The notes beneath the pieces are model-generated. The model searched no databases. It had not been told where the DNA came from and worked only from the letters and a program-made list of their open reading frames with translations. Positions 33,198 to 41,158 of a stretch of 64,000 nucleotides of DNA are shown here, piece by piece. Position 1 is the first letter of the stretch. Each line of letters starts with the position of its first letter. This DNA is from an uncultured Myxococcales bacterium (GTDB taxonomy: Bacteria > Myxococcota_A > UBA9042), in the NCBI GenBank assembly GCA_903955385.1, contig CAJBNH010000135.1:1-64000 (forward strand), written 5' to 3'. The position numbers and the translations under genes are program-made.

Positions 33198-39542
<6,345 letters not shown>

Positions 39543-39621
39543 CGATCCACCGCTTGGCCTGCGCCGTCCGTCCGTCCGCAACCTGGTGCGACAAGCGAAG
39601 GGCTTTCGCCACAAGCTCTAG

Positions 39622-39650
39622 TCTTTACGCTGGGGGGGGGCGAGCGTCAA
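39622..39650 (-). promoter_or_regulatory. Candidate phase-variable promoter with C9 spacer tract
   Basis: Minus strand: TTGACG (39650-39645), a 17-bp spacer CTCG-C9-AGCG (39644-39628), TAAAGA (39627-39622). The -35 is good and the -10 moderate. An A7 tract (39649-39655) abuts the -35. The predicted leader to ATG 39542 is about 70 nt. Loss or gain of one C would shift spacing to 16 or 18. The rest of 39656-39806 holds nothing recognisable. Confidence 0.5.
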
Positions 39651-39806
39651 AAAAACGGGTGCCCGCTTGCACTTCCGTCGTCTCGTCGGTCTCGCAGACG
39701 TCACGGTTGCGAGCTGCCGGAGGCACCCGCTCGGCGGCGCGACACAGCCGAGGGTCGCGCACGCGCGCGTTGCGGCCGCGCGAGGTCCGGGTGCGCTGAA
39801 CTTCGC

Positions 39807-40304
39807 TTACGCCTTGGGCTTCTTGGGGATCCACGCCCACAGCATCGTGCAGTGGATGGGCTCGCCGCCGGTTGCGTCGGTCACGGTCACCGGTACTGCC
39901 AGCTCGCCCTTGGGCGTCGCCTGGATGTGGGCGATTTGCTCTGCCGAGAGCGTGGCCACTGCGCGCATGTCGCCCTTGGTCCGCTTGCGGAAGTCGACGG
40001 TGAACGACTTGATCAGGGGCAGTCGGTCATCCGGCAGGTTCATGGCCACCACAAAGCCGGTCGCAGTCTCCGCCAGCAGCGCCATGGCGGCCGCGTGTAC
40101 GTTGCCGATGTGGTTGCGCGTGGGGCGACGGTTGCGAATCGAGACGACGACGCGCTCAGGCGTCAGCTCCTCGTACAGCAGCCCGCTGTGACCGACGTAG
40201 GGCACGTAGCGCCCGAGGATCTGCGACACCACGCGCATCCGCACGGCTTCGGGCAGAAACCGCAACTGGGCGAGGCGGCGGGTCATCGCGTTGGGAGCGG
40301 TCAT
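39807..40304 (-). CDS. DUF4442-family (hotdog-fold) protein
   Basis: 165 residues; ATG 40304 with a GAGG site. The sequence pattern 'NHIGNVHAAAMALLAETATGFVVAMNLP' is that of DUF4442, a hotdog-fold family related to acyl-CoA thioesterases; activity is unproven here. No signal peptide, so cytoplasmic. It starts 14 nt after the HmuY-like lipoprotein stop and is probably cotranscribed with it, though a functional link is not obvious. Confidence 0.8.
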   Translation of the reverse strand: MTAPNAMTRRLAQLRFLPEAVRMRVVSQILGRYVPYVGHSGLLYEELTPERVVVSIRNRRPTRNHIGNVHAAAMALLAETATGFVVAMNLPDDRLPLIKSFTVDFRKRTKGDMRAVATLSAEQIAHIQATPKGELAVPVTVTDATGGEPIHCTMLWAWIPKKPKA

Positions 40305-40318
40305 GGAGAACCTCGGGC

Positions 40319-41158
40319 TCAGGGCTGCAGGAAAGCCCAGCGGATGCGCATTTGTCCGCCGGGTGTGCCCATCGGCACCTTGCCAGTCGTGTTGCAGGTC
40401 GCTTGGGCTTCCGGCGCGTAGTAGTCCGTCACCGTCGCCTTGACGACCCGACCGTCGCCGCGCTGGATCAGGTACACGAAGTCGGTCATCTGCACGCAAT
40501 TCGAGTACTTCCAGAAGCCGGCCGTCACCGTGTCCGGCGCCTCGAGGCCCGAGCCGTCGGGCACCAGCGTGCACTTGGTCGTGAAGTAGGCCTCAGGCTC
40601 GAACTCGGCATCGACGGGGACGCTGGCGACGTCCTGGAAGGCCGTGTCCTTGGCAAGCTGTGCACCGTACACGCACCCCGGCCCCGCGACGCCGCTGTTG
40701 AGCCGGATCACGTAACGGCGAAACGCGATGTCCCAGTCGAGCGAGGTGAACGCCGCTTCGTCGCCGATGGCCACCTTCTCCAGCCCCTTGTCGGTGAACC
40801 GAGCGTAGACAAAGGCTTCCGACGGGTTCATGCCGCCCCCGGCCGCATCGACCGAGCTGACGAAGCCGTCACCGTCGATCTGGTTCTGGACCTGACGCGT
40901 GCTGGCCTTGCCGAACAGTGGCAACAGTGCCACCTGCTCGTCGATGCACGGGACTTTGCTGGGTTCGCACACGGCTGGCTTGGGGCTGTCGGGCGCCGTG
41001 TCCGGTGTGGCGGTGTCGTCGGTCCCAGCCGTGTCGGAGTTCGTCGTGTCTGCCGCGCTGGTGTCGGTCGGCGTCGTGGACGTGCCGGCGTCGGTTCCGC
41101 AGGCCGGAGCGGTCAGCAGGGCGAGCGAAAAACCAAAGCGAAGGAGCGGACTTGTCAT
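40319..41158 (-). CDS. HmuY-like lipoprotein
   Basis: 279 residues; ATG 41158 with AGAGG. Lipobox with Cys20, then a Thr/Asp/Ala-rich tether to about residue 65. The core contains 'SLDWDIAFRRYVIRLNSGVAGPG', the segment typical of HmuY proteins, and 'DFVYLIQRGDGRVVKATVTDYY'. HmuY of Porphyromonas is a surface heme-binding lipoprotein; many homologues have unknown ligands. No TonB receptor or other iron gene is adjacent, so heme binding is only possible. Confidence 0.8.
   Translation of the reverse strand: MTSPLLRFGFSLALLTAPACGTDAGTSTTPTDTSAADTTNSDTAGTDDTATPDTAPDSPKPAVCEPSKVPCIDEQVALLPLFGKASTRQVQNQIDGDGFVSSVDAAGGGMNPSEAFVYARFTDKGLEKVAIGDEAAFTSLDWDIAFRRYVIRLNSGVAGPGCVYGAQLAKDTAFQDVASVPVDAEFEPEAYFTTKCTLVPDGSGLEAPDTVTAGFWKYSNCVQMTDFVYLIQRGDGRVVKATVTDYYAPEAQATCNTTGKVPMGTPGGQMRIRWAFLQP

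Follow-up and report, generated by a model that had tools for sequence, protein, structure and literature searches.

Locus organization

Within the window, which is the whole stretch of DNA analysed (64,000 nt), a gene for a giant protein follows a DUF4442 gene on the minus strand. The intergenic region between the two measures 264 bp, since the DUF4442 gene ends at position 39807. The features considered here are given below in the order of the coding (minus) strand, with the giant gene last.

39807..40574, minus strand: upstream gene, DUF4442 (PF14539), assigned by profile match (E 2e-30)
39656..39729, minus strand: stem of CGGGTGCC (39729-39722) with GGCACCCG (39663-39656), 8 perfect pairs, 58-nt loop, adjoining the T7 run
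39655-39649, minus strand: T7 run (A7 on the plus strand), overlapping the -35-like hexamer; direct reading
39650-39645, minus strand: -35-like hexamer TTGACG, 5 of 6 positions as in TTGACA; direct reading
39644-39628, minus strand: spacer CTCGCCCCCCCCCAGCG, 17 bp; direct reading
39640-39632, minus strand: C9 homopolymer tract, wholly within the spacer; direct reading
39627-39622, minus strand: -10-like hexamer TAAAGA, which is without the final T; direct reading
39620-39625, minus strand: possible alternative -10, AAGACT; its distance to the -35 is 19 bp with C9 and 17 bp with C7
33198..39542, minus strand: giant gene, 2114 aa, with signal peptide, TSP3 repeats and OmpA domain

On the coding strand the order ACCCG-TTTTTTTGACG-CTCG-CCCCCCCCC-AGCG-TAAAGA is read directly from the sequence, and the stretch containing the promoter candidate is ACCCGTTTTTTTGACGCTCGCCCCCCCCCAGCGTAAAGACTAGAGC. 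An earlier note on this DNA had placed TTGACG and TAAAGA exactly 17 bp apart with nine C among the intervening bases, and had described an A7 tract that touches the -35. Both statements are exact; the A7 of the plus strand is the T7 of the minus strand and overlaps TTGACG. From the end of the -10 hexamer to the ATG of the giant gene the distance is 79 nt.

The giant gene and its product

The giant gene starts with the ATG at 39542, and a signal peptide is encoded there. The protein contains about 51 DxDxDG motifs with matches to TSP3 (PF18884) and carries an OmpA domain (PF00691) at its C-terminus. A weak MYXO-CTERM-like segment, a second hydrophobic segment and a barrel-like region are also present. 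The gene, described earlier as encoding a giant surface protein, is real by its length, signal peptide, TSP3 repeats and OmpA domain; the surface location in that description is predicted, and the protein is presumably surface-exposed.

The profile of the gliding lipoprotein CglD (NF033765) scored 465-492 bits against a cut-off of 400, a score that sums 11-12 repeat matches to a protein with an extra barrel-like and OmpA part. Despite the score above the cut-off, the protein was not assigned to CglD. The outer-membrane exchange protein TraB (NF033763) reached only 165-179 bits against a cut-off of 700, with the best stretch at the TSP3/OmpA end.

Residues from about 1490 to 1560 form a Cys-TM-RRRR segment resembling MYXO-CTERM (TIGR03901, 18.4 bits, cut-off 20), which is followed by a second signal-peptide-like stretch, the barrel-like region and then the OmpA domain. 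This layout suggests that a TSP3 MYXO-CTERM protein and an OmpA protein have been joined in frame, and it recalls traA and traB of Myxococcus, two genes that overlap (PMC3325183).

Terminator-like stem

Runs of T7 or longer occur eight times in the 5.3-Mb genome, which has a G+C content of 67%. Stems of at least 8 pairs appeared in 222 of 20,000 shuffles (about 1.1%). For a terminator the loop of 58 nt is long, and folding of the complete region gave no advantage over shuffles (z 0.36). The stem and the T7 run may, with moderate confidence, be taken as the terminator of the DUF4442 gene, with a U-tract that overlaps the next promoter. T7 as a general mark of terminators was rejected, most T6 or longer runs in the genome being without a stem.

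Promoter analysis

A strict consensus scan found no sigma-70 site at the candidate, because TAAAGA matches TATAAT at just three of six positions. A promoter model was therefore derived from the same genome, using 676 kb in 32 stretches with 451 crude gene calls and 248 upstream regions; the training set includes the candidate's own region. In this native model the -35 is TTG[AC]CN and the -10 is TA-N3-T. Sites with TTG-N3 followed by TA-N3-T numbered 38 at a spacing of 17 bp, 7 at 16 bp, 11 at 18 bp and 0-6 at other spacings, and 75% of the native-model sites have the 17-bp spacing. Given this sharp peak, sigma-70-type promoters spaced 17 bp are the rule in the genome.

The candidate scores about 8.1-8.2 nats and is the top-scoring site of the intergenic region, where no site that does not overlap it exceeds 5 nats in the native model. 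Scores at least as high were found in 102 of the 248 real upstream regions, which makes the candidate mid-ranking, in 51 of 248 antisense controls and in 7 of 248 shuffled regions. Among 1000 dinucleotide shuffles of the region, 14 equalled it when an E. coli-type matrix was used. The most conserved -10 base of the native model, T6 (82%), is absent from TAAAGA. The pair is better than chance, and TTGACG and TAAAGA are likely to form a promoter of moderate sigma-70 type.

A rival view, in which the hexamers are fortuitous, the gene is transcribed from a promoter elsewhere (its own true one or that of an operon) and C9 is a neutral intergenic homopolymer, is unlikely. It agrees with the negative strict scan and the poor fit of the -10, with the frequency at which antisense controls attain the score, and with the intergenic position of 32 of the 45 C9-or-longer tracts of the genome (crude gene caller). 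Against it, the candidate leads its region and stands far above the shuffles, no separate site in the region competes with it, and the terminator-like stem speaks against read-through from the upstream gene.

Frequency of C and G tracts in the genome

C/G tracts of at least 9 bases number 46 in the genome, where a second-order Markov model predicts about 20; taken by itself, the C9 tract is unremarkable. This enrichment was considered as a sign of selection and rejected: intergenic tracts fall short of the expectation from independent bases (in 49.6 kb of intergenic DNA, 3.7 tracts expected and one seen, the C9 described here), and the steep drop in tract numbers with length counts against selection. 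Tract density and an assumed total of about 1600 promoters together predict that, by chance, some one tract per genome lies wholly inside a promoter spacer. At the candidate's score, one of 45 tracts does so, again the C9 of this locus. The occurrence of a tract in a spacer is thus at about chance level, and with one overlap expected and one seen the coincidence needs no special cause.

Proposed mechanism

The preferred reading, held with slightly better than even confidence, is that of a moderate promoter with an incidental slip-prone C9, similar to porA and fetA in its working and without sign of selection as a switch. From the sequence we infer promoter activity, slippage and an effect of slippage in the following way. 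The giant TSP3/OmpA gene would be transcribed from TTGACG-17-TAAAGA, acting as a moderate promoter of the sigma-70 type; the pair would serve this gene because the DUF4442 gene probably terminates at the stem just upstream. The spacer happens to hold a C tract of slip-prone length. With one C more or fewer the spacing would depart from the preferred 17 bp, and output would fall a few fold, in a graded and not an all-or-none manner. After loss of two C, the overlapping -10 AAGACT could rescue the promoter at 17 bp.

Scores in the native model are 8.2 nats for C7 (via AAGACT), 6.5 for C8, 8.2 for C9, 6.4 for C10 and 3.9 for C11, which is a change of about -1.7 nats for one base more or less and of -4.3 nats for two more. 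The model accordingly forecasts graded tuning by tract length, asymmetric between gain and loss, and no on/off switch.

Survey of related genomes

The protein families seen (TSP3, CglD-like repeats and a weak MYXO-CTERM) suggest that the host belongs to Myxococcota or a close relative. The host is the sole representative of its genus among the genomes compared. An orthologous promoter in these relatives was rejected, since synteny of the locus was not found; in G002, which has the nearest DUF4442 relative, the next gene is on the opposite strand. The upstream regions of other giant TSP3/OmpA genes are unrelated to that of the candidate.

A class-wide survey covered 52 genomes and permitted spacer lengths of 10-26 bp. 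The pattern TTGAC-(C8)-TANNNT gave 11 sites and its G8 version 12, while reversed control patterns gave none in the same 52 genomes. Despite this freedom in length, the spacer measured 16-18 bp in all 11 sites with C and in 10 of the 12 with G, so that most of the tract sites are probably real promoters. For C8, 11 sites over 9 spacer positions compare with 21 distinct sites over 30 positions upstream of like promoters; the density of C8 per position in the spacer is 1.75 times that in the upstream flank, a difference that is not significant (p 0.10). Lipoprotein genes stand behind 9 of 23 spacer tracts and behind 8 of 36 ordinary promoters (p 0.14, with two lipoprotein classifications corrected by eye). 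A bias of spacer tracts towards surface genes, initially about 12 of 22, was rejected as not significant, because lipoprotein genes are frequent behind ordinary TTGAC promoters as well.

Two cases, both with tract lengths from assemblies in which homopolymer errors are possible, bear on the behaviour of such tracts in the class. In G038, two near-identical lipoprotein genes differ over more than 130 bp around the start just in the spacer tract, which is C10 in a spacer of 18 bp in one copy and C9 in a spacer of 17 bp in the other; the difference is suggestive of tracts that are able to change length. In G025 and G046, two species of one genus, an orthologous promoter of an exported-protein gene has kept G9 (L246, L247). 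It is decidedly unlikely that bacteria of this class, probably Myxococcota or close relatives, switch the expression of their surface lipoproteins and giant TSP3/OmpA proteins by slippage-tuned poly-C or poly-G tracts in sigma-70 spacers.

Some further details of these sites were recorded. Just upstream of both G038 promoters (contigs 145 and 169; L240 and L241, about 1480-1530) lies a perfect 16-bp palindrome, GTAGTCAATTGACTAC. The promoters of G025 and G046 read TTGACCTTTTCCC-G9-ATA, identical in tract and spacing and different in the -10. On contig 271 of G005 (L236), a C10 tract lies in a 16-bp spacer before a gene for a signal-peptide protein, the start of which resembles, by eye, a PilQ-type AMIN domain.

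Comparison with known systems

The fetA gene of Neisseria gonorrhoeae has a poly-C tract of C10-C14 between -35 and -10, the length of which differs among strains and alters expression (PMC5320596). The present locus is alike in having poly-C in the spacer of a probable core promoter before the gene of a predicted outer-membrane protein; it differs in its shorter tract (C9), and variation among strains and in expression is on record for fetA. In Neisseria meningitidis porA the tract also lies between -10 and -35, according to van der Ende (1995) as cited in PMC5320596. The two loci share a homopolymer that sets the -35/-10 spacing. They differ in that differences among strains and measurements of expression are on record for porA, while at the locus described here the tract is of C and there may be a second -10.

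In Bordetella, the C-stretch of fim2, fim3 and fimX sets the distance from an activator site to the -10 and not the -35/-10 spacing, and a single-base change of the fimX tract accompanies a 3.8-fold difference in transcript (PMC1891110). That study applied a threshold of more than 8 C/G, which the C9 tract exceeds. A C tract in the promoter (a probable promoter here), a gene for a surface structure (a predicted one here) and a GC-rich genome are common to the fim genes and the present locus; the model of activator-site distance and the tracts polymorphic among strains (PMC1891110) set the fim genes apart. The comparison is loose, because the fim C-stretch lies between activator site and -10. 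Of the mechanisms cited in the earlier note, the parallel with porA holds, porA and fetA being the exact parallels (PMC5320596), whereas the one with Bordetella fim is off in this detail (PMC1891110).

Possible phase variation

An evolved phase-variation switch, by which the giant surface protein would alternate between high and low expression as C9 slips reversibly, as in porA and fetA, is unlikely. The tract does lie inside a spacer at the preferred 17 bp, the product is a giant exported protein, fetA with C10-C14 offers a known parallel (PMC5320596), the duplicated G038 promoters differ in tract length, and a G9 spacer tract is kept in G025 and G046. These points are set against a chance expectation of about one such overlap per genome, a class-wide C8 spacer excess and a lipoprotein enrichment that both fall short of significance, and a second -10 that would buffer contraction of the tract. 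It is very improbable that the C9 length is a sequencing or consensus error which leaves the 17-bp spacing uncertain by a base or two: homopolymers are error-prone and the assembly has 201 contigs, but an error would have hit exactly the preferred spacing through luck alone, and no independent sign of error was seen.

With the moderate promoter and its incidental C9 as the preferred reading, the locus is a plausible candidate for spacer phase variation of the porA/fetA kind. The phase variation proposed earlier keeps its plausible promoter, the 17-bp preference, the exported giant protein and the length of the tract; an enrichment clearly beyond chance was not obtained. Among the papers searched, none describes phase variation by homopolymers in myxobacteria. 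If the tract varies, phase variation by spacer length, for which the examples come mainly from host-associated pathogens, would extend to a new group, one with elaborate surface proteins and with no such report found, and the tract would offer an easy way to approach heterogeneity between cells in that group. The chance expectation given above supplies a yardstick for such tracts in GC-rich genomes.

Other long tracts

C tracts are also present before paralogues, namely two other giant surface-protein genes, as C8 at 40 bp (L107) and C7 at 127 bp (L104) before the start; they lie outside the best promoter spacer and were rejected. The longest C/G tract of the genome is a G15 at 4369-4383 of L088 (G000 contig 134, 20368-20382). 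It lies in or adjoins a short open frame (IRGGGGDGAP in one frame) and is a candidate for slippage longer than C9.
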